Origin: Streptomyces sp. HUAS MG91
Lineage (GTDB): Bacteria; Actinomycetota; Actinomycetes; Streptomycetales; Streptomycetaceae
Length of the DNA: 64,000 bases
Assembly: GCF_040529335.1 (NCBI RefSeq)
Contig: NZ_CP159534.1
Coordinates: 7,378,001 to 7,442,000 of the forward strand
Direction of reading: 5' to 3'
Position 1 is the first letter of the stretch; every line of letters begins with the position of its first letter. Position numbers and translations under genes: made by a program. Positions 9,044 through 21,408 of the stretch are shown here, in pieces. The notes below the pieces were generated by a model, which had not been told where the DNA came from, did no database searches, and saw only the letters and a program-made list of their open reading frames with translations.

Positions 9044-9117
<74 letters not shown>

Positions 9118-9120
9118 CTA

Positions 9121-9852: not shown

Positions 9853-10275
9853 CAGAGGCCGGTCCTGTGCGACCCGGCGCCACCCCGCCGCGGAAAGCGC
9901 AACTCAGGCTCGTCCGGCAAGTTGGCTCGGTGGCCGCTGGGGCCTCAGAGGAAAGCAGGCGGAATGTCCTTCTCGATGCGCAGAGCCGCAGGACGCCTGC
10001 CGACCAACGGTGAACACCTCACTCCACCGGCGCTCGCCACCGACGCCTGACATCTCGGGGAGGGAGAGCCCTTCGGCCGAGGCCCGACGTGCCATGCGTC
10101 ATCAGCCGGTGCGTGTCGGTGTGTTGCACATGCAATAATCACCGGGCCCCTGGGGGGAGGGGCCATGGGGGTGCGCCCAAATTCGGGCGGGTCAGGCGGA
10201 GTTCATACCTCGTCGTACACAGCTGCCCGTACCTCTCTCTGCAGGCTGACATGTATGCGAGAGACGAGGTACGAA
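9853..10275 (+). other. 423-base gene-free stretch
   Basis: No frame with coding character was seen. It contains TTGCACATGCAATAAT near 10122-10137, in which TTGCA-CA-TGCAA is a short dyad overlapping a possible -10, and then a G-rich run before the effector gene. These are candidate promoter elements of the large effector gene; nothing else is recognised. Confidence 0.4.
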
Positions 10276-13200
10276 GTGCGAAGACAGTTCGCGCAAAGGG
10301 GCTTCGCGGCCACCGCGCTGGCGACGGCGGCGGCCGTCCTGGCCGGGTTGATGCACGCTGCTCCCGCGGCGGCCGACGAGCCCGGTGACAACCCGGCGGA
10401 CCCCTACCAGAGGACCGTCCGGATCAGCCTGGGCGCCCAGGCCCGCCAGGACCGCTGCCAGGTGGCGCGGGCCGTCCACTACGGCGGCCCCGAGATGAAG
10501 GCCCTGGCCGGGACCAGGCTCGCGGGCTCCGACGCCGACCTGCGCAAGGTCGTGGCGGACTGGACCTTCGGCGAGCTCGGCCAGGCGCAGGACCGGGACA
10601 AGGCCGCCGGGCTCGACTACCTAAACACCTTCCGGGCCCGCCAGGCCAAGTTGGACGCGGACAACAAGCCCTACGCGGCGACCAATTCGCAGGGCGGGCG
10701 GGACTATCACGCGCCGGAGTTCGGCGGTGACATCGTCGCGTTCACCGTCGGCACCCAGCAGGACCTGTACTACCGGACCTGGGAGAACCCCACGCCGCCC
10801 GCCGGGAAGGCGAGCGTCGACAAGGCCAAGGAGATCTTCGACGACCTGTCCACGCCGGACGACGCCTGGGCGACGGCCTACAAGCCGTTCGCCGGGGACG
10901 AACTGTTCGGCGTCGGCGGCAAGGGCCCCAGCTCCGCCAACGACATAGCGACCTTCCTGCGCTTCGGCGGCTTCCCGACCAAGGCACCCGAGCCGGACTC
11001 CCTGGAGTTCCGCTCGGAGGTCGAGGCACTGAAGGTCGCCTGGGCCGGCTGCGACAGCGCCAACCCCATCGACCACTACCGGGTGCTGACCGGGCCGGTC
11101 ACCCAGGCGTACACGGAGTGGGAGGCCGAGTACGCGGGCCAGGCCCCGATGCGCAAGGCGATCGGCGCCGCCGAGCTGTCCGCCTCCAAGGAGGTGCGGA
11201 CCGCCACCGACGCCATGGTCGAGGCGATCCGGCAGGCCTGGCAGGCCGACCAGATCCTGTACTGGCAGAAGTACTGGGCCGCCCACAAGGACTCCATCAA
11301 CTATCCCAAGCCGGCCGCCTTCACGACGGCATCGGCAAGCCTCAGCAAACTCAAGGTCTCCGTCGTCAGCCAGGTCAAGGTGGCGGACGAGGCCGTGGCC
11401 CGGGCCAAGACCGCCTCGGACACCGTGACCACGCAGCAGACGGCCGCCTGGACCGTGGCGGACAACGCCAAGCTCCCGCGCGGCCGGGGCCTGATGCAGG
11501 CCCAGCAGTCGGTGCAGGTCACCAAGGCCTCGTACGCCGCCGCCCAGGCAGCCGCGAAGACCGCGCTGACCGCGTCGAACGCGGTCAAGGCGACGGCCGC
11601 CGACGCCCAGACGCTGCTCGCCCTCGCCAAGACGCAGTCGCACGCGCTGAACACCGAGTTCCGCAAGGCCGCCGCCCTCGAGGCGATGAACCAGGCGAAG
11701 GCGGCCGCCGCGGCCGCCGACCAACAGGCCAAGGACGCCGCCGCCAACGCGGCGACCGCGAAGAAGGCCCGCGAGACCGCCGAGAAGGCCGAGCAGACCG
11801 CCAGGACGGGCGCCGCGGAGGCCAAGCGGCAACGGGGCATCGCGGAGACCGAGAAGGCCACCGCCGAGCGCGAGCGCGACAACGCGGCCCGCGAACGAAA
11901 GAAGGCCGGCGACGCGGAGGCCCGCGCCCAGACCGAACGGGACGCGGCAGGCCGGGCGCTCGCCTCGGCCCAGACCGCGGGCGCGACGGCGTCCGACAAG
12001 CTCGCCGAGGCCGAGGCCGCCGAGCGGCGCGCCTACGACGCCCGTAACACCGCCGTACGAGCCGAACGCGACCGGGACGCCACCGCCTCGCGGGCCGCTG
12101 CCCTGGAAGCCGCCGCGGCGGCCGCCGAGGGTTCCGACGCCGCGGTGGAGACCCGGCAGGCGGCGACCGAGGCCCGTACCGCCGCGAACAGCGCGGCGTC
12201 CGCCGCGACCCGCGCCCGCTCGGCCGCTGACGACGCGTCCGCCGCGGCCGTGAACGCCCGTGCGGCCGCCACCCGTTCCGACGCCGCCGCCCAGCGTTCC
12301 CGCGCCGCGGCCGAGGCCTCATGGGCCGCCTACACCAAGACCCACCAGGCGGCGCAGACCGCGCACGCGGCGGCGGCCGAGGCCATCGACGCTGCGGGCG
12401 CGGCCAAGCAGAACGCCGACAACGCCGAGGTGGAGGCCAAGAAGGCCCAGGCCGCCGCCATCAAGGCGCGCCAGGAGGCGACCGCCGCGCAGGCCGAGTC
12501 CGTCCGGACCGCGCTCTGGGCGGCGAAGACCGCGGGCTACGCCTACGCCACCGGGCAGGCCGCACAGGCTGCCCGGGATGCCGCGAACGCGGTGGCCAAG
12601 GCGGCCGACACGGCCATCGCCGTGGGCTCCCCGTACCGGGAGACCGACACCTCGGCGGCGTTCGCCGTCCTCGTCGGACAGACCTCCAAGACGCTCGCCG
12701 AGCAGCAGGCCTCGGCGGCCAAGGCCAAGGCCGACGAGGCAAACAAGGCGGCGGCCGACGCGAAGGCGCTCGCCGACAAGGCCGCCGGCGACGCCAAGAT
12801 CGCCCTCCAGGCCGCGGCCGACGCCGCGGGCTACGCGGTCCAGGCGCTCAAGTCCGTCGCCGCGGCGCGTGCCTCGGCAGCGGCGGCGGCCACCGACGCG
12901 GCGGCCGCGAAGAAGGCCGACGCCAACGCCCAGCAGTACGACATCCAGGCCGGCACCGACGCCGTGGCGGCGGGCAACGCAGCCAACGACGCCGAGAGCG
13001 CGGCCGCGCAGGCCGACCGCGAGGCCACCGACGCGGAGCGGGACGCCGCGAGCGCGCGTCAGGCGGCTTCCGCCGCCGAGGCGGATGCTTCCGCCGCCGG
13101 TACCGTCGCCACCGCCGCGGAGTCCGACGCGACCAGGGCGGAGACGGCGGCGTCCAACGCCGACGGCGCCGCCAAGGACGCCGACGCCGCCGCCACCCGT

Positions 13201-14097
13201 GCCGAGGAGGCCGAGCGCAAGCGTCTGGCCGAACTGCGCAAGGAACGCGCCGATGCGGCGCCCGACATGGGCCCCGAGCTGAGCCAGGACGAAGAAGCGA
13301 TCCTGCTTCGCATGTGCGGGCAGGAGTGCGTGGACCAGTACCGGGCGGCCCGCGCCCTCGCGGGCCAGGACCTGCTCGCCTGGGTCAAGGAGAACGGCGG
13401 TGCCATCCTCCTCGACTTCATCGGCTGGACGGACCTCAAGAACTGCCTGACCAAGGGCGACCCCGAGAGCTGCCTGTGGACGCTGGTCAACGCGGTCAGC
13501 GCGGCCATTCCGCTCACCAAGATCCCGGCGGTCGGCAAGGCCATCGTCCGGATCACCGGCGGCGTCGTCGGCTTCTTCGAGAAGTCGGCCAAGGCCAAGA
13601 AGGTCATCAAGAACCTCGAGAAGATCATCGAGAAGGCCAAGAAGGAGCCCGACCTCCCGTCCTGTGTGAAGAAGCCGCTGAAGTCCGCCGCGACGGCCAG
13701 AACGGCGTCGTTCGCCGCCGCGGCATCGGCCGCCGACGGGCCGGACATCTGCGGGTACGACCCGGGCGACGAACTGCCCTTCGAGATCCTGGACAAGATC
13801 GACGAGACCTACGGGCCGGACGTGTCGGACGGCGTCGAGTACCAGTGGCGGCGGATGATGGGCGACTCCAAGGAGGCCAAGGACCACAACATCCCCGGCG
13901 TGGGACGCGACCTGGACTCGATGGCGAAGTACTTCGAGAAGTGGCGCGGCAAGGGAACCCACAAGGACTCGAAAACGGGCAACCCGGTCGCCTACGACGA
14001 GGACAAGGGGTGCATCGTCATCATCACCAGCCGTTTCATCCACGCGTACAAGATGACCGAGGCGGACTTCCTGAGCGGCCGCTACGTGAAGAACTAG
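10276..14097 (+). CDS. Large secreted alanine-rich coiled-coil effector (polymorphic-toxin architecture)
   Basis: 1,273 residues from a GTG with GACGAGG seven bases upstream; an in-frame ATG at 10255 is the main alternative. Layout: Sec signal peptide (about 1-34, ends AHAAPAAA-like before DEP); a globular region with two ALAGT/LRFGG-type helical repeats (35-330); a very long Ala/Lys/Glu/Arg coiled coil (about 345-1010) made of AAAA-A-x-A heptad-like runs; a hydrophobic 'pre-toxin' segment (DFIGWTDLKNCLTKG, AAIPLTKIPAVGKA); and a C-terminal domain of about 120 residues with DHNIPGVGRDLDSMAKYF and VIITSRFIHAYKMTEADF. This matches actinobacterial polymorphic toxins with ALF-like/coiled-coil stalks. 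The tip domain is not recognised; a nuclease of the BECR type is a guess. An immunity-like gene follows. Confidence 0.72.
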   Translation: MRRQFAQRGFAATALATAAAVLAGLMHAAPAAADEPGDNPADPYQRTVRISLGAQARQDRCQVARAVHYGGPEMKALAGTRLAGSDADLRKVVADWTFGELGQAQDRDKAAGLDYLNTFRARQAKLDADNKPYAATNSQGGRDYHAPEFGGDIVAFTVGTQQDLYYRTWENPTPPAGKASVDKAKEIFDDLSTPDDAWATAYKPFAGDELFGVGGKGPSSANDIATFLRFGGFPTKAPEPDSLEFRSEVEALKVAWAGCDSANPIDHYRVLTGPVTQAYTEWEAEYAGQAPMRKAIGAAELSASKEVRTATDAMVEAIRQAWQADQILYWQKYWAAHKDSINYPKPAAFTTASASLSKLKVSVVSQVKVADEAVARAKTASDTVTTQQTAAWTVADNAKLPRGRGLMQAQQSVQVTKASYAAAQAAAKTALTASNAVKATAADAQTLLALAKTQSHALNTEFRKAAALEAMNQAKAAAAAADQQAKDAAANAATAKKARETAEKAEQTARTGAAEAKRQRGIAETEKATAERERDNAARERKKAGDAEARAQTERDAAGRALASAQTAGATASDKLAEAEAAERRAYDARNTAVRAERDRDATASRAAALEAAAAAAEGSDAAVETRQAATEARTAANSAASAATRARSAADDASAAAVNARAAATRSDAAAQRSRAAAEASWAAYTKTHQAAQTAHAAAAEAIDAAGAAKQNADNAEVEAKKAQAAAIKARQEATAAQAESVRTALWAAKTAGYAYATGQAAQAARDAANAVAKAADTAIAVGSPYRETDTSAAFAVLVGQTSKTLAEQQASAAKAKADEANKAAADAKALADKAAGDAKIALQAAADAAGYAVQALKSVAAARASAAAAATDAAAAKKADANAQQYDIQAGTDAVAAGNAANDAESAAAQADREATDAERDAASARQAASAAEADASAAGTVATAAESDATRAETAASNADGAAKDADAAATRAEEAERKRLAELRKERADAAPDMGPELSQDEEAILLRMCGQECVDQYRAARALAGQDLLAWVKENGGAILLDFIGWTDLKNCLTKGDPESCLWTLVNAVSAAIPLTKIPAVGKAIVRITGGVVGFFEKSAKAKKVIKNLEKIIEKAKKEPDLPSCVKKPLKSAATARTASFAAAASAADGPDICGYDPGDELPFEILDKIDETYGPDVSDGVEYQWRRMMGDSKEAKDHNIPGVGRDLDSMAKYFEKWRGKGTHKDSKTGNPVAYDEDKGCIVIITSRFIHAYKMTEADFLSGRYVKN

Positions 14098-14152: not shown

Positions 14153-14566
14153 ATGAGGACACGGATCAGGCTCACCCCCGACGAGGGCGGTGAGGCCTTC
14201 GTCGCACGGCTCGCGCCGTCACAGGCGTCGGCGCTGCGCGAGGCGCTGATGCTGCTGCGCTCCGGGGAGTCCGGTGACGCGGTGCTCGCGCTCCGGCTGG
14301 GCGCGGACCGTGCGACGGTGGACGACCTCGTCGACCGGCTCGGGGACGACGGCGGCCGGTCGCGGGACATCCCGTTCTCGGCTTCTGAGCTGCACACTCT
14401 GCACAGTGCCCTGACCGCCGTGGCGACCATGTTCCTGGCCCACGGGCGGTACTTCTCGGAGGAGCCCTTCCACGAGCGGATCGGCTGCTACCGGGAGGAC
14501 GCCGACGCCCTGGCGCTCGGCATCGCGGACGCGCTGATCGAGGCCCGCCCGCAGCCGGGTTCCTGA
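14153..14566 (+). CDS. Probable immunity protein for the coiled-coil effector
   Basis: 137 residues, cytosolic, helical, no recognised family. It begins 55 bases after the effector's stop and ends before a strong terminator, so the two form one unit. Features: RIRLTPDEGGEAFVARLAPS, alternating acidic and Leu/Ala helices, and a C-terminal half HTLHSALTAVATMFLAHGRY. Its position and size are those of an immunity protein; the sequence alone does not prove it. It might instead be a chaperone or adaptor for export of the large protein. Confidence 0.6.
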   Translation: MRTRIRLTPDEGGEAFVARLAPSQASALREALMLLRSGESGDAVLALRLGADRATVDDLVDRLGDDGGRSRDIPFSASELHTLHSALTAVATMFLAHGRYFSEEPFHERIGCYREDADALALGIADALIEARPQPGS

Positions 14567-14698: not shown

Positions 14699-17491
14699 TC
14701 AGTGCTCTTCGAGTCTTTGTTTCCTCAGCTGAAGAAGTTGTGCGAGCGCGCTGGCGTTGCCGGCATCGGCGGCCCTCCGGGCGAGAGAGTCCGCCTCCCT
14801 CCAGTCACCGGCCATGTCGCGCAATATGGCAAACCGCCCCATAGCGTAGGTGTCGCCCATGTCGGCGGCGGTCCGCAGCAGCGATCCGGCGCCATCCGCG
14901 TCACCCCCCGACTCCCGGATGTCCGCGAGTCTCACCAGGGTGCTGGTGCTTCCGGCCTCGGCGGCCAGCTGAGCGAACCGCTCGGCTCCCGTCCGGTCGC
15001 CGGAGAACTCGCGCATCTCGGCGATGCGCGCGAGGGCACTGGTGTCACCGGCATCCGCTGCCAGTTTCGCGAATCGCTCGGCACCTTCGTGATCCCCCGA
15101 GAGCTCGCGGAGATCGGCGAGGCGCGCCACAGCACATGGATTGCCTGCTTCCGCGGCTTGAAGTGCCAGGCGCTCCGCACCCTCCGAGTCTCCGGCCTGC
15201 TCGCGCGCTTCGCTGATCCGCGCGACTGCGCTGGGAATGCCCGCGTCCGAAGCCAGACGGCACAGATGCTCGGCACCTTCATGATCCCCTGCGGCCTGGC
15301 GTATGGCGGAGAGCCGTATCGCTGCGAAGCGATGTCCGGAGTCGACGGCCTTCTGGGCGAGCTTCTCGGCCTCCGCATGCAATCCCGCTGCTTCACGCAT
15401 CTCGGCGAGCCGAACAAAAGCGAAGGACTGTCCGGCGTCGGCGGCCCGCATGGCCAAACGTTCCGCGCCGGTCCGGTCGCCGACTGCTTCTCGCTGAGCC
15501 GCGAGACGGACCAATGCGCTGGCATTGCCCACCCGAGCGGCCCGCTGGTACAGCCGCTGAGCCCCGTTCTTGGCTCCAGCCGCCTCTCGCATCACGGCGA
15601 GCCGCATGAACGCGGAGGTGTCGCCGGCGGCGGCCGCCAACTGACAGAGCCGTTCGGCGCTCTGGTGTGCTTCTGCTTGTTCTCTCAGCTCGGCAAGACG
15701 GACGAGAGCGCTGGTCAGCCCTGCTTCTGCGGCGTCACGGGCGAATTGCTCGGCGTCTTCGCGCTTTCCGGCCGCCTCGCGCAGCTGTGAGAGGTGAGCC
15801 AGGGCGCTCGGGTCTCCTGACTCCGCGGCGCGTCGGGCGAACTGCTCCGCTTCCTCGAACTGCTGCTCCAGTTCCCGTAATCCTGTCAGCCGGAACATCG
15901 CGGCCGTGTTGCCATGATCGGCGGCGCGTTGCAGGAGCCGGTCGCTCTCCTCGGTAGCACCTGCGGTCCCTCTGATCTCCGCCAGCCGAATGAGCGCGTC
16001 GGAGTTGCCCGAAGCCGCCGCCTGTCGCGCAAGTCGCTCGGCCCACTGCATCCGGTTCCTGACCCGGGCGGCATCGGCCAGGTTGGCGAGATCCTTGGGG
16101 CCGAGATGGTCGAGGGCCGCCCGCCAGAACGAATCCGGGGGACACAGCCGCGCGCGACGGCGGCGCCCATGCTGTTCCAAGTAGTCGGCAAGGCGATACG
16201 ACTCGGTCCGGGGGACCGGGCTCGTGGAGGTTGGCGAGGCCGGACGCGGACGGGCCCGGCGCAAGGGTGCGTAGCGGCCGTGGACGGGGCGGGTCACGTC
16301 CGTGAGCGCGAGATCCAGCCAGTCGTCGGACAGCTCGTCGTACTCGGCGTCGTCGAGATAGCCCTCCACGGCGTGCTCCAGGAACGCGACCGGAATGTGC
16401 GCTCCCACCCCGAGGCGCCGGGCGTCCATCGCAGCGTGGAGCAGGGCTCCTACGGCGGTGGAGGCTGACCCGTAGCGGCGCAGGAGCTCAGGGACCCCAG
16501 CGAGGAACTGGGTCAATCGGCCGTTCTCCATGTGCCCCAAGGCATAGGCGAGTTGCTGGTCACCCGCTGCCGCGAGAGACCCTGCTGCCTGTATCGCCGC
16601 TTCGTCGAAGCTGTCCGGCAACTCGATCAACCTCCCCGCCAGCAACTCACGGATTCGCGCATACGAATCCGGGCCACCGGCCTCGGGGAGCGCCATGAAC
16701 GCGTCCGCGTACTCCGGCCAGAGGGTACCCAGGATCAGCACAGGGCCTCGGTCCCCGTCGGTGAGCCGGCTGTGGACCGCTGCCGAGATGCGTTCGCTGG
16801 TCTTCTCGCCGACACCGAAGTACTGCTGAGCGTCGTTGAGCCAGACGACCGTCCGAGGCGCGACCCTGCCGATGTCGGCGAGGACGGCGTCGGTGCGAGT
16901 GGGGTCGAAGGGATGCCAAAGACGCCATCCGGCGGCGGCCAGCGGCTGCACCGCCTCCCAGCACGCCCGGGTCTTGCCCGTGGATGAGGAACCGACGAGT
17001 ACGGCCATCCCACTGCGCCCGTACTGAGCCGCGCTCACCACTGTCGCCAACGCATGGTCGTGTGCGCGCCGAACGTAGGCGGGGAGTACGGCGAGTCGCC
17101 CGTATCTCCTTCCGCCCCTGTCCGTCTGAGCCCCGGAGCCCGCCGCCGGCGGCATCGCGGCTGGATGCACTTCCAAGTCGTGCGGATCCCACAGTCCGAT
17201 CGACTTCCCTGGAGTGCCGACGTCGGGAGGCGTGACGTCACGGCCGTGTACGGCATCGAGGAGCTTCAACAGTGCGGGGGTGTCCAGGTGAAGGGCCTGG
17301 CCCAGCGCGCCGACCGTGTCGCTCGAAGGCGCCGCCGCGTTGGTGCTGAGTGCCTGGTTGACCGTCGTACGACCCAACCCGGCGGCACGGGCCAGTTGTG
17401 TCTGATTGAGCCCGCGGGCCACTCGGCCGGCCTCCAGACGGTGCCTCAGTTCCGCGAGCGCGTCGCGGTTGTGAGCCTCACCAGTGTCCAC
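14699..17491 (-). CDS. HTH + STAND-type P-loop NTPase + 14 TPR/Sel1-like repeats
   Basis: 930 residues from a GTG preceded by AGAGGA at good spacing (an ATG at 17539 is the longer option). Layout: XRE helix-turn-helix (about 14-79, GLNQTQLARAAGLGRTTVNQ); a P-loop NTPase with Walker A GSSSTGKT (167-174) and Walker B VVWLND (215-220), then LILGTLWPEYADAF; helical linker; 14 tandem 32-residue repeats (about 470-925) of the form AGDTSALARLAEMRE...GAERLAxxAAD. HTH plus STAND NTPase plus a superhelical sensor is the architecture of signal-triggered bacterial conflict proteins; here the HTH may act as effector or autoregulator. No nuclease, TIR or protease domain is seen. Divergent from a small membrane protein. 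Function inferred, not shown. Confidence 0.75.
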   Translation of the reverse strand: MDTGEAHNRDALAELRHRLEAGRVARGLNQTQLARAAGLGRTTVNQALSTNAAAPSSDTVGALGQALHLDTPALLKLLDAVHGRDVTPPDVGTPGKSIGLWDPHDLEVHPAAMPPAAGSGAQTDRGGRRYGRLAVLPAYVRRAHDHALATVVSAAQYGRSGMAVLVGSSSTGKTRACWEAVQPLAAAGWRLWHPFDPTRTDAVLADIGRVAPRTVVWLNDAQQYFGVGEKTSERISAAVHSRLTDGDRGPVLILGTLWPEYADAFMALPEAGGPDSYARIRELLAGRLIELPDSFDEAAIQAAGSLAAAGDQQLAYALGHMENGRLTQFLAGVPELLRRYGSASTAVGALLHAAMDARRLGVGAHIPVAFLEHAVEGYLDDAEYDELSDDWLDLALTDVTRPVHGRYAPLRRARPRPASPTSTSPVPRTESYRLADYLEQHGRRRRARLCPPDSFWRAALDHLGPKDLANLADAARVRNRMQWAERLARQAAASGNSDALIRLAEIRGTAGATEESDRLLQRAADHGNTAAMFRLTGLRELEQQFEEAEQFARRAAESGDPSALAHLSQLREAAGKREDAEQFARDAAEAGLTSALVRLAELREQAEAHQSAERLCQLAAAAGDTSAFMRLAVMREAAGAKNGAQRLYQRAARVGNASALVRLAAQREAVGDRTGAERLAMRAADAGQSFAFVRLAEMREAAGLHAEAEKLAQKAVDSGHRFAAIRLSAIRQAAGDHEGAEHLCRLASDAGIPSAVARISEAREQAGDSEGAERLALQAAEAGNPCAVARLADLRELSGDHEGAERFAKLAADAGDTSALARIAEMREFSGDRTGAERFAQLAAEAGSTSTLVRLADIRESGGDADGAGSLLRTAADMGDTYAMGRFAILRDMAGDWREADSLARRAADAGNASALAQLLQLRKQRLEEH
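14714..16090 (-). repeat. In-gene tandem repeats, 96-base period, 14 units
   Basis: The 3' half of the STAND gene encodes 14 consecutive 32-residue units, each containing a variant of A-G-(N/D)-x-S-A-L-x-R-L-A-E-x-R-E then G-A-E-R-L-A-x-x-A-A-D. Units have diverged in DNA, so the array is old or under diversifying change. Boundaries approximate. Confidence 0.8.
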
Positions 17492-17621
17492 GTCGCATCC
17501 TCTGAGTCCCCCCGGCGCCCGTTGTTCGCCGGTGTTCATCTTGAGTCGATGAACCACGGTGAACAGGAGGTACCCGAAAGTCGGCCCCACCACAACAGGC
17601 CGAACACGCGGAGGACCGGAT

Positions 17622-17828
17622 ATGACGGACCGCAACATGATCACCCTCTTGGCCGGCGCACAGGTGATCGTCATCGCGCTGCTCGCCGGAGCGGCTGCCG
17701 GATATCTGGCGCGCCGGGACCACGCGACCTACCCCGCTGCTCTGGCGCGTGCGGCCATGAGTTTCACCGCGACCGTGGCTCTTGCCGCCACGGTGGTTAC
17801 CACCGTGGCCGGCGTCGGCCACACATGA
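17622..17828 (+). CDS. Small two-segment membrane protein
   Basis: 68 residues from an ATG with GGAGG seven bases upstream. Two hydrophobic stretches, ITLLAGAQVIVIALLAGAAA (about 7-27) and MSFTATVALAATVVTTVAGV (about 46-65), are separated by a basic loop YLARRDHATYP. It is divergent from the HTH-STAND gene across about 130 bases that must hold both promoters. No family recognised. Small membrane proteins next to STAND or HTH genes can be regulatory targets or membrane-disrupting effectors; that reading is speculative. Confidence 0.65.
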   Translation: MTDRNMITLLAGAQVIVIALLAGAAAGYLARRDHATYPAALARAAMSFTATVALAATVVTTVAGVGHT

Positions 17829-18648: not shown

Positions 18649-19161
18649 TCAGATGCCGAACGCGGTGGCGTAGCGGACGGTGCCGCTCGGGAGGGGAAGG
18701 CCGGTGTCGAGGCTGAGCGCCATCAGGGCGTCGTCGGGGACGTCGATGGTCAGGCCGATGCCGTGGTCGGAGGCCCGGGTGAATCCGAACCGGGGGTAGT
18801 AGGCGGGGTGTCCGAGGACGACCACGTGGTGCTCGCCCTGCGCCTTCGCCGCGGCCAGGGCCGCGCGGATGGCCGCACTGCCCGCTCCGGTCCGTTGGTG
18901 TTCCGGGCGGACGGCGCACGGGGCCAGGCACAGCGCCGGGGTGGTGCCGATGTGGCAGCGGGTCAGCAGCGCGTGGCCCACCGGGCGGCCGGTCTCGTCG
19001 GCCGCGACGAGGGAGAGGCCCTCGATCCAGGCGGCCGGATCGGCGCGCAGGGCGTCGACGAGGTCGGCCTCGGCAGGGGTGGGGAAGGCCGCGAGATTGA
19101 TGTCGCGGACGGCGGGGATGTCGGCGCCGGTCTCGGCGCGCGTGATCCAGGTGTTGCCCAT
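18649..19161 (-). CDS. GNAT-family N-acetyltransferase (YhbS-like)
   Basis: 170 residues from the ATG at 19161 (another start at 19215 would add 18 residues of low coding quality). Family marks: ITRAETGADIPAVRDINLAAF at the N-terminus, VGHALLTRC, LCLAPCAVRPEHQRTGAGSAAI with the acetyl-CoA loop, and VVVLGHPAYYPRFGFTRAS, which is typical of the YhbS branch. A 21-codon ORF with an excellent ribosome site lies about 80 bases upstream and may be a leader. Substrate unknown. Confidence 0.88.
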   Translation of the reverse strand: MGNTWITRAETGADIPAVRDINLAAFPTPAEADLVDALRADPAAWIEGLSLVAADETGRPVGHALLTRCHIGTTPALCLAPCAVRPEHQRTGAGSAAIRAALAAAKAQGEHHVVVLGHPAYYPRFGFTRASDHGIGLTIDVPDDALMALSLDTGLPLPSGTVRYATAFGI

Positions 19162-19242
19162 GGCGATGGGAGATCCGTTTCGGGAGTCGTGCGTGCGGTT
19201 GCCCCGTGAGCTCACGCTCTCAGCGAGGAGGGGACGGGAAAA

Positions 19243-19308
19243 TCAGGCCACGGCCCGGGACGTGAGGGAGACCCGGACGCTCCGCAGGGTGGCCGTGAGC
19301 GCGGTCAT
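19243..19308 (-). CDS. 21-codon small ORF with strong ribosome site upstream of the GNAT gene
   Basis: Reads MTALTATLRSVRVSLTSRAV followed by A and a stop. Directly upstream on the minus strand is GGGAGGTGAGGTTG, one of the best ribosome sites in the window. The peptide is basic (three Arg) and Ser/Thr-rich. It precedes the YhbS-like acetyltransferase on the same strand and could be a regulatory leader peptide. No known leader family recognised. Confidence 0.5.
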   Translation of the reverse strand: MTALTATLRSVRVSLTSRAVA

Positions 19309-19701
19309 CAACCTCACCTCCCATCGACAACCACTGATCAAACACGGACACCTCAACCATACACAGACAGGCCCCGCACGACCGACGACGAGCGGCCCGA
19401 GGTCCGCTCGGTACCCCACGATCGGCTCGTCGAGCTGGACGAACACCGGCGTACGAGCTTGTGGGCCGCCCGCATAAAAGTGTGGGAAGGGAGCAGAGGG
19501 TCGTAGGAGACGGACTCCATCGACATTCGGCCAGTGGCACGGCTCTTCACGGAATCCGACTCCTCGCGTCACAAGTTGCCCATGCGTGTGTCCTACGGAG
19601 TGATGGCCGGTTCCTGTCGGCCAATTCGCAACGGCACGAGCCCACGATCACGTGGCCCGTGCTCGCGTTGCGGACCGGCGGTTCCAGGAGCGGTGGAAGA
19701 G
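19309..19701. other. 393-base intergenic stretch
   Basis: No complete gene. A plus-strand frame ending with TAG at 19504-19506 reads plausibly as protein (VPHDRLVELDEHRRTSLWAA) but has no start or ribosome site; it may be chance in high-GC DNA or a gene remnant. Promoters of the STAS gene and of the small ORF must lie here. Confidence 0.35.
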
Positions 19702-20400
19702 ATGCAGTGGACCGATCGAACGGCTGCGCACGGGACGATCGTCCTCGGCGTGAGCGGGGATGTCGGCGCGACCAGCCTGGGAGAGCTGCGCCGGCCCGTG
19801 TCCCGGTACCTCGCCCAGGGGCACTTGGCGTTCGTGATGGATCTGAGCGCGGTGCGGTACTTCGACTGGTCCGGGATCAAGGGTCTCGCCGGACTGCGGC
19901 TCCCGGTCACGGGCCGCGGCGGCACGTTCGGTGTGGCCGGGGGAAGTTCGGTGCGCCGCGCGATCGTGTCGAGCCGATTCGAGCACGCTCTCGGTCTCTG
20001 CCCGACGCCGGGAAAGGCCGTGCTGGCCTGCGCGCCGGAGCCCTTCCTGCGCGCCGATCAGAGCGTCTGCGACTGGTGCGGCGCCGTCGTGCCCACCGGC
20101 GAACGCGTCGACGAGATCGTGCGGGACTCGTCCGCCGAGTACCCCGGAGACCCGCTTCTTGAGGGCGCACGCACCGTCGTCGGCTGTGGTCACCGGCACG
20201 TCACGGCCTTGGTCGAGCACTACGGCGCGCGGCCCTACAGCGAAGTCGAGGCCTGGGCGGCACGGGTCGACCGGGTGGTCGAGGACAAGGGCGAGTCCTT
20301 CAGCGGCCTCCCGCTGGCCGATGCCGTCGGCCTTGATCTCGGCCAGCTGCGCCGAGCCCTGGCCTGGCGCGCCGGGCACGACGTTTCGAGCACCGCGTAG
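19702..20400 (+). CDS. STAS-domain protein (anti-sigma-factor-antagonist-like) with Cys/His tail
   Basis: 232 residues from an ATG with AGGAG ten bases upstream. The STAS fold fills about residues 8-110, with the phosphorylation-loop region DLSAVRYFDWSGIKGLAGL keeping the Ser of the D-x-S-G motif. Unlike a minimal antagonist (about 110-120 residues) it has a second half with Cys123-x2-Cys126 (CDWCG) and C-x-H-x-H at 162-166 (CGHRH), a possible metal site, followed by a helical region. Likely a regulator in a partner-switch system controlling a sigma factor; no partner kinase is adjacent. Confidence 0.72.
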   Translation: MQWTDRTAAHGTIVLGVSGDVGATSLGELRRPVSRYLAQGHLAFVMDLSAVRYFDWSGIKGLAGLRLPVTGRGGTFGVAGGSSVRRAIVSSRFEHALGLCPTPGKAVLACAPEPFLRADQSVCDWCGAVVPTGERVDEIVRDSSAEYPGDPLLEGARTVVGCGHRHVTALVEHYGARPYSEVEAWAARVDRVVEDKGESFSGLPLADAVGLDLGQLRRALAWRAGHDVSSTA

Positions 20401-20462
20401 GCCGCGTCCACCGGGGGTGGGGCAGCCGGCGAAGGGGAGCGGGCGGGACGCCGAGGCTCGCT

Positions 20463-21386
20463 TCAGGGCACCAGGACGACCTTTCCCCGATTGGCCCGGG
20501 CCTCGATCGTCGCGTGCGCTCGCGCCGCGTCGGCGAGAGCGAACTCCGCGTGGACCGCGGGCCGCAGCGCACCTTCGCCGAACAGCCGCCACAACTCGTC
20601 CCGCCACCGTGCGTACCGCTGCGGCTGGGTCCTGGCCACCATCGCCACCTGGAAACCGATGGCCGACCTGCCGCCCGCGAGGAGCTCGTACGCGTCGATG
20701 GTGCCGCCGCCCGAACTGTAGGCGACCAGCCGTCCGCCGGGTGCGAGCGCCTTGACGGCAGGGGTGAGCAGGGTGCCGCCCACCGCGTCGAGCACGATGT
20801 CGACCGGATCGCCCCAGCCCGGCTGCCCGTAGGTCACCATGGCGTCGGCGCCCAGCGACCGTACGAAGTCCTCCTTGCCGGAGTCGCCCACGGCGGCGAC
20901 CACGCGGGTGGCACCTCTCGACCGGGCCAATTGCAGGGCGAGATGGCCCACCCCGCTCGCCGCCGCGGTGACCAGGACCGACTCGCCCTGCTCCGGGCGC
21001 GCGGCCTCCAGGGCGCCGAGCGCCACCACACCGCTGCGGACGAGTGCGACGGCGTCCGTGGCGGTGGCGTCCGCCGGAATCGGCGAAGCCATCGCGGAGT
21101 GCAGCAGCGCGTACTCCGCGTATCCGTGTCCGAAGCAGAGGCCGGTGACGCGGTCGCCCGGAACGTATTCGCTCACGCCTTCGCCGACGCGCACCACTTC
21201 ACCGGCCAGCTCTCCGCCGAGCGGGATGGGCTGTGCGCTCTCGCGCGTCTTGCGCACGACGGGGAGCGTGACTCCGATCGCCTCCGTCCTGACGAGCAGT
21301 TCGCCCGGCCCGGGCTCCGGGACGGGGACCTCCTCCTGGAACAACTCTTCGGGTCCGCCCGTGTGTTCGTACCGGATGCGCCGCAT
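20463..21386 (-). CDS. Zinc-type alcohol dehydrogenase / quinone reductase (MDR family)
   Basis: 307 residues. GroES-like N-terminal domain (RIRYEHTGGPEELFQEEVPV), then the NADPH-binding domain with VLVTAAASGVGHLALQLARS and GATRVVAAVGDSGKEDFVRSL. The short form lacks the structural zinc lobe, as in quinone oxidoreductases (QOR). ATG at 21386 with a G-rich ribosome site. Divergent from a MarR regulator across a large dyad, so it is very probably MarR-controlled and responds to quinones or other electrophiles. Confidence 0.9.
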   Translation of the reverse strand: MRRIRYEHTGGPEELFQEEVPVPEPGPGELLVRTEAIGVTLPVVRKTRESAQPIPLGGELAGEVVRVGEGVSEYVPGDRVTGLCFGHGYAEYALLHSAMASPIPADATATDAVALVRSGVVALGALEAARPEQGESVLVTAAASGVGHLALQLARSRGATRVVAAVGDSGKEDFVRSLGADAMVTYGQPGWGDPVDIVLDAVGGTLLTPAVKALAPGGRLVAYSSGGGTIDAYELLAGGRSAIGFQVAMVARTQPQRYARWRDELWRLFGEGALRPAVHAEFALADAARAHATIEARANRGKVVLVP

Positions 21387-21408
21387 GGTCGATCCCCCCG
21401 ACACTCGC

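Follow-up and report, generated by a model that had tools for sequence, protein, structure and literature searches.

A STAND-like NTPase with an XRE head and a divergent two-helix membrane protein around a conserved dyad: a candidate conflict cassette of Streptomyces

In a 64,000-nucleotide stretch of Streptomyces sp. HUAS MG91 (contig NZ_CP159534.1, positions 7,378,001 to 7,442,000; hereafter the window), the gene of a large NTPase and the gene of a small membrane protein diverge from a shared intergenic gap that carries a conserved inverted repeat (Table 1). The two genes form a conserved cassette that is accessory, occurs sporadically and is partly plasmid-borne. With moderate confidence we read it as an NLR-like nucleotide switch whose XRE-type helix-turn-helix (HTH) head would act on one dedicated operator and so control the membrane peptide, with a likely use in conflict or defence.

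With a profile of 19 relatives, we searched 79 homologous loci of named genomes (the best 80 of 140 candidates were retained) and detected the membrane gene upstream of, and divergent from, the NTPase gene in 68. The 11 misses comprise one locus truncated by a contig end (L065), five without an XRE head (L073, L076, L077, L080 and L082), one in which a remnant of the head comes after a different N-terminus (L071), two headed loci with a different membrane protein upstream (L055 and L056) and two which keep head and operator without a detectable membrane gene (L026 and L030). Across 150 Streptomyces genomes, the membrane gene flanked 20 of 22 XRE-headed matches (those starting at or before query residue 30) against 3 of 46 headless ones (Fisher p 4e-12; the rows are matches, some of them from one broken gene, and the genomes are not independent). 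Both headed exceptions have altered N-termini, L165 with a partial head and L166 with a different one, and the three headless positives are two genes that carry a different HTH-like head and one piece of a disrupted XRE-headed gene. A survey of this neighbourhood had been proposed in an earlier note on this DNA, written from the sequence alone, and the co-occurrence that it brought out contradicts the idea of a chance neighbour. The NTPase core can likewise be dismissed as the common factor: because so few of the core matches without an XRE head have the peptide, it is the head that the peptide follows.

At least 2294 proteins match the NTPase protein at E ≤0.001 among 7989 candidates scored; per genome, up to 10 candidates were scored in the core search and up to 40 in the peptide search. 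Query residues 1–477 were matched in 51 of 150 sampled Streptomyces genomes and in 89 plasmid records, 46 of them covering at least 80% of the query, and many copies lie on chromosome-sized or non-plasmid contigs. The same query found zero matches in 50,697 phage records, which leaves a phage origin unsupported. Plasmid copies occur on S. avermitilis SAP1 (SAVERM_RS40900 with SAVERM_RS00150) and on a plasmid of Streptomyces sp. NBC_00148; the membrane gene is present in both, as is the operator with 4 mismatches, and the latter copy lies near a gene of the SCO6880 family, which we take to be conjugation-type, and near IS21 and Tn3 genes. A tblastn search of plasmids with one small peptide, run with a low-complexity filter, found no match. 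No other neighbour cluster appeared in more than 4 of the 79 loci, bar open reading frames (ORFs) mostly opposite the NTPase gene (17 loci), in a clustering whose coding filter retained 620 of 12,767 ORFs. The clustering recovered 20 peptide genes and 43 of the 79 NTPase genes, so rarer partners could have escaped it. We found no clean empty site among 25 relatives, where the flank 18650–21400 was matched in parts only. The earlier note had named as its counter-case a core locus lacking the membrane gene; the homologues are instead linked to that gene, sporadic and partly plasmid-borne, with neighbourhoods that are otherwise unrelated in the filtered view.

The gap between the two start codons (17492–17621) is 130 bp, and across loci its dyad follows the general pattern TGTTCGCCGTGGTTCG-N9 to N11-GATGAACACCGGCGAACA. 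The window and 67 loci deviate from its 34 defined positions by 0–11 mismatches, whereas none of 340 Markov-shuffled gaps came below 12; two further cassettes, which an E-value filter had excluded, have it at 4 (L029) and 12 mismatches (the first cassette of L061). The resulting 69 of 70 cassettes examined that keep the dyad are a measure of conservation and not an independent test, because the consensus was built from the same loci. Its arms are inverted copies of each other, agreeing on average at 11.4 of 16 positions (4.7 after shuffling), and GTTC occurs twice in each consensus arm. Support beyond conservation comes from the shuffled control, the absences and the co-variation of head and operator. 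Six loci without an intact XRE head, plus L055 and L056, reach 14–16 mismatches at best. Over 38 loci, the distance between heads correlated with that between operators once core distance was removed (partial r 0.30, with 5 of 2000 permutations as high), against a partial r of 0.07 for core and operator given the head. Allowing ≤3 mismatches, the degenerate pattern has a single place in the 8.6-Mb host genome. Weaker dyads are present where XRE-headed partners have other cores, in the gaps of L090 (7 mismatches), L097 (9) and L098 (9); since ungapped matches at 11 mismatches, presumably due to chance, also occur elsewhere in the fetched loci (L103, L116, L153 and L162), only the better operator matches weigh singly.

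The comparison supports the prediction that the XRE head binds one dedicated four-arm dyad, placed where it could control both divergent promoters. In 43 of 68 cases, TTGAC lies 27–29 bp ahead of the dyad as read in the regulator's direction, so the dyad would overlie the −10 region of the regulator itself; no TTGAC occurs in the gap of the window pair. The NTPase ORF of 930 residues starts at GTG 17491, and its frame is open upstream to ATG 17674 (991 aa); the alternative start ATG 17539 would give 946 aa, but falls within the operator dyad. The earlier note had offered DNA binding by the HTH or the membrane peptide as the output of the system; the conserved dedicated operator suggests that the two belong to one pathway.

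The composition that the same note had read for the large protein, with XRE HTH, GSSSTGKT and VVWLND in 930 residues, holds throughout, as judged by sub-cut-off Pfam matches, a structural model and a 53-row alignment (the window and 52 homologues). The head matches HTH_31 (22.6 bits) and HTH_3 (20.8 bits), each below cut-off, and its model has five helices with a predicted local distance difference test score of 87–93 per block. Walker A occupies residues 167–174 and the Walker B motif VVWLND, with its acidic end, residues 215–220 (consensus VVWLNE), with S169, S170, G172, K173, T174, W217 and N219 invariant in the 53 rows and a strand modelled at 214–218. GxP in the helical domain that follows the NTPase is characteristic of STAND proteins, and a conserved GxP is present at residues 332–334: G332 is invariant in both the 53-row alignment and one of 45 rows, and P334 is invariant in the latter and in at least 90% of the former. 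A Foldseek search with the core model returned the ZAR1 resistosome first (E 4.7e-5) and Apaf-1 third (E 3.4e-4); AAA_16 was among the sub-threshold Pfam matches of the window pair, which had no NCBIfam match above cut-offs. The repeats, described earlier as 14 units of exactly 32 residues, share a mean pairwise identity of 0.44 (200 within-unit shuffles gave a mean of 0.11 and a maximum of 0.13), with a self-match of 0.46 at offset 32 that drops to ≤0.14 at every other offset between 28 and 37; no tandem repeat was found at the DNA level in this region. Such tandem alpha-alpha units, which would form a superhelix, are of Sel1/TPR-like kind. Models, motifs and Foldseek together support the proposal that the protein is a STAND/AAA+-like switch with a superhelical sensor half.

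The membrane ORF opens with ATG 17622, preceded by GGAGG, and has two hydrophobic stretches; its size, its orientation and its distance of about 130 bases from the NTPase gene are as first described. Most of the invariant columns of its family sit in the loop AGYLAR-D-ATYPAAL-R, and residues 25–45 are net positive in 19 of 19 members of the 19-relative profile and in 22 of 25 members of a 25-relative one. This charge and the positive-inside rule predict a cytoplasmic location for the strongly conserved loop. No Pfam family matched the 25 peptides above cut-off (best DUF6112, E 0.0048), no SLATT family was among the matches up to E 1, the best PHROG match (function unknown) had E 0.0061 and the best Protein Data Bank (PDB) sequence E 1.1. 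A supposed likeness to ATP-synthase subunit c was dropped, there being no such family in the Pfam scan of the 25 peptides.

With the 25-relative profile, whose added members were chosen by sequence with partner genes playing no part in the choice, the peptide was detected in 58 of 150 Streptomyces genomes and 23 of 246 genomes of the class. Of 37 genus matches at E ≤1e-11, tallied by manual reading of the survey tables, 31 face a divergent gene of sensor or regulator type: 16 with the window-type core (some broken), one HTH-TPR and 14 others, two of which consist of the head end only (G063, cut by the contig, and G096:C1, a remnant). The remaining six do not face such a gene (G074, the second copy of G094, G095:C38, G134, G099:C69 and G126). 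Weaker matches (E >1e-11) were excluded from this tally, and several of them adjoin unrelated or co-directional genes. The other partners fall into several sensor classes (Table 1); L089 and L093 are assigned to NACHT through 64–66% identity to L102, and the leucine-rich C-terminus of L090 has a sub-threshold LRR_4 match. The window's head can be aligned with the HTH heads of eight other partner proteins at 34–48% identity. The NACHT family is matched in at least 111 of 150 genomes; by eye, among the matches listed, the peptide adjoins the HTH-headed G121, G083 and G047 and the N-terminally cut G119:C404, and the rows G074 and G012, which reach the head region, show neither an HTH head nor the peptide.

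That every partner head is an HTH proved unsupported, as heads marked by GRPW-RG-C-EIN-L (EIN-L heads) have no profile match to the XRE heads (hhalign probability 0.5%, 6 vs 9 sequences) and have a weak Pfam NNH6 match in two of six (best E 0.0037). The gaps of the EIN-L group carry their own conserved ACAAC/GTTGT repeats before the peptide gene. Nor does an EIN-L head guarantee the peptide, which was found at 8 of 24 matches and is missing from L196 and L197 on inspection. A broader reading, which is tentative, can be proposed: the family of ~65-residue two-helix peptides would be the shared output of plug-in NLR-like sensors, each binding its own dyad within the common divergent promoter, in a transcriptional, inflammasome-like switch. 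The cores plugged in would be that of the window, NACHT with or without LRR-like or HEAT parts, NB-ARC-TPR, TIR-NB-ARC, GAF-SpoIIE and GAF/PAS-GGDEF, and detection of an invader would lead to transcription of the same membrane effector rather than to the use of a fused or assembled one.

The same facts could also be taken to mean that the peptide is a receptor or anchor, whose cytoplasmic loop holds or regulates the sensor head at the membrane, the operator serving autoregulation. One membrane family beside many sensor cores is what a head anchor would look like, and both the invariance of the loop columns and their net positive charge agree with it; the heads to be contacted, however, are sequence groups without detected relation, both head groups examined keep their own dyads in the gap, and L026 and L030 keep head and operator without the peptide. 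We consider an anchor unlikely.

Two further observations touch the peptide family and its neighbours. Weak profile matches in L132, L133, L150 and L159 lie directly downstream, in the same direction, of genes for proteins of 820–890 aa whose N-terminus is a different HTH-like stretch (IAALAGVSRPTVTAWE...); the family may have an additional pairing here. In L055 and L056, which have neither peptide nor operator, the divergent ORF encodes a single hydrophobic stretch together with a repetitive coiled coil (AAWAAGQRQADAAW...) and may be an alternative membrane partner.

Table 1 Features of the cassette in the window, and loci of the divergent partners of the peptide family
Feature	Positions in the window	Strand	Remarks
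NTPase gene: HTH, NTPase, winged-helix-like part, 14 x 32-residue Sel1-like repeats, 930 aa	14699..17491	-	
XRE-type HTH head, residues 12-80	17252..17458	-	sub-cut-off Pfam matches and five modelled helices
NTPase with C-terminal helical/winged-helix-like region, residues 129-476	16064..17107	-	Walker A, VVWLND, GxP
14 tandem 32-residue Sel1-like alpha-alpha repeats, residues 479-926	14714..16057	-	
Putative operator dyad TGTTCACCGTGGTTCA-N9-GATGAACACCGGCGAACA (NTPase sense)	17523..17565	.	inverted repeat of ~43 bp
68-aa two-helix membrane protein, conserved loop AGYLARRDHATYPAAL-R	17622..17828	+	
Divergent partners, NACHT (Pfam above cut-off)			L090, L102, L097
Divergent partner, NB-ARC-TPR (Pfam above cut-off)			L086
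Divergent partner, TIR_2-NB-ARC (Pfam above cut-off)			L092
Divergent partners, SpoIIE (Pfam above cut-off)			L088, L094, L100
Divergent partner, GGDEF with GAF/PAS (Pfam above cut-off)			L101
Divergent partner, NPHP3_N (Pfam above cut-off)			L091
Partners outside the 37 (class-level or weaker)			NB-ARC-TPR L145, L152; SpoIIE L146; NACHT-HEAT L138
Partner outside the 37, HTH-TPR, NACHT sub-threshold			L148
EIN-L group gaps with ACAAC/GTTGT repeats			L088, L092, L094, L095, L100, L101, L123, L128, L146

The heads carried by sibling cores bear on the use of the system. One such core (L117) has a Trypsin_2 head (54.8 bits, cut-off 27.6), and its PADLOC matches include Avs1b (E 1.2e-8); another (L080) has a Peptidase_C14 caspase head (42.1 bits, cut-off 21.4); that of L073 is fused to an AfsR-like part with BTAD, Trans_reg_C and NB-ARC, and those of L082, L107, L112 and L120 have HTH-like heads by eye. 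The N-termini of L071, L121 and L178 look nuclease-like by eye, with a strand motif Q-x-K that recalls restriction-endonuclease folds; their head region has no Pfam match, and L121 and L178 also have no PADLOC match. Exchangeable heads upon a constant switch and sensor are described for conflict NTPases in the sections of PMC7159879 drawn on here. Because the same core occurs elsewhere with trypsin and caspase heads, and the peptide family occurs beside TIR-NB-ARC, NACHT and NB-ARC-TPR proteins, conflict or defence is the likely use of the pair. Weighing against a pure defence role, no PADLOC model scores better than E 0.017 for the window pair; the best matches of the NTPase have E 0.017 and 0.047, both confined to the HTH region.

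STAND transcription regulators such as MalT, AfsR and GutR join a DNA-binding domain to a STAND-type NTPase and a TPR-like sensor, and AfsR acts mainly on one tiny neighbouring gene, afsS. The window protein has three parts that resemble these, and an ordinary regulator of this class, with a house-keeping or developmental target and no role in conflict, would account for the HTH, the nucleotide switch, the alpha-alpha repeats and the operator; the SpoIIE and GGDEF partners are signalling rather than killing domains, and the AfsR-like part of L073 points the same way. We nevertheless find this rather doubtful: the cassette is sporadic (51 of 150 genomes) and appears in 89 plasmid records, the filtered clustering gave no other widely conserved neighbour, the operator has its single place in the host genome, and sibling cores bear trypsin and caspase heads. 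It differs from MalT, AfsR and GutR, moreover, in its N-terminal XRE HTH, in its neighbour, a two-helix membrane protein divergent across a dedicated dyad, and in that unrelated sensor cores also come with this head and this membrane family.

Some features would suit a toxin-antitoxin-like addiction pair, in which a membrane toxin is repressed by the HTH head and the pair is maintained through plasmid carriage: the small two-helix protein, the divergent repressor-like HTH, the plasmid copies, one of them beside IS21 and Tn3 genes, and an operator over the expected −10 of the regulator promoter. This explanation appears very unlikely to us, as a 930-aa sensor is superfluous for simple addiction, many copies lie on chromosome-sized or non-plasmid contigs, in G094 (L172) the head is frameshifted although the adjacent peptide gene seems intact, and L083, L085 and L087 have peptide genes without a recognisable divergent regulator. 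The last two observations also speak against a regulator that does nothing but repress a lethal peptide; more likely, triggering leads to activation, or the peptide by itself does not kill. In the switch that we favour, the 14-unit Sel1-like superhelix would sense a ligand or trigger, upon which the P-loop core may change state or assemble, as in others of its class; the XRE head would then leave or engage the dyad, and the level of the membrane peptide would change, the peptide acting on the membrane.

The proposed switch shares features with several known systems. Like Avs and bNACHT proteins and the ternary conflict systems (Kaur et al. 2020, PMC7159879, as far as covered here), it combines a nucleotide switch with a superhelical sensor, is sporadic and accessory, and has exchangeable N-terminal domains (trypsin, caspase) on sibling cores. 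Unlike these, its head is an HTH with its own operator and no vWA/MoxR partner was seen; because of such a head, the effector would be called by transcription, not fused or assembled. The small two-helix membrane protein recalls the SLATT/2TM pore-forming effectors, which the consulted part of PMC7159879 predicts to act on membranes, but the window's family has no SLATT match up to E 1, has a short conserved loop and is paired with an HTH and an operator. HTH-DUF397 pairs, treated in the same portion of that article, likewise couple an HTH protein to a small partner in a mobile neighbourhood; there, however, the partner consists of a small domain containing beta-strands that is often present in multiple copies, whereas in the window it is a membrane hairpin and the HTH is fused into a 930-aa sensor. 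Each part is of a known kind, and the combination would be that of one hairpin family serving several NLR-like sensors through head-specific dyads. A limited literature search, which included parts of PMC7159879 and PMC8195603, did not find it, and we make no claim that it is absent from print.

Beyond the cassette, the window encodes a 1310-aa alanine-rich coiled-coil protein (10165–14097, +) that starts with a signal-like stretch and has a short C-terminal part of distinct character. A 137-aa ORF (14153–14566, +) comes next, beside the 3′ end of the NTPase gene, and the two resemble, by eye, a polymorphic-toxin/immunity-style pair. The former has no Pfam, NCBIfam or PADLOC match and the latter a sub-threshold HTH_29 match only. 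A tRNA-Pro(ggg) gene at 9044–9118 (+), ~5.6 kb from the NTPase gene, is a candidate integration site of an island.

If our reading is true, a single dedicated promoter and a shared membrane peptide would connect immune-type nucleotide switches with gene regulation, and the purpose of HTH heads on NLR-like bacterial proteins would be explained. The 43-bp dyad and the 65-aa hairpin offer a sequence handle for unannotated systems, and the pair on SAP1, a small natural pair in the well-studied species S. avermitilis, could serve to separate the repressor, activator and anchor models.

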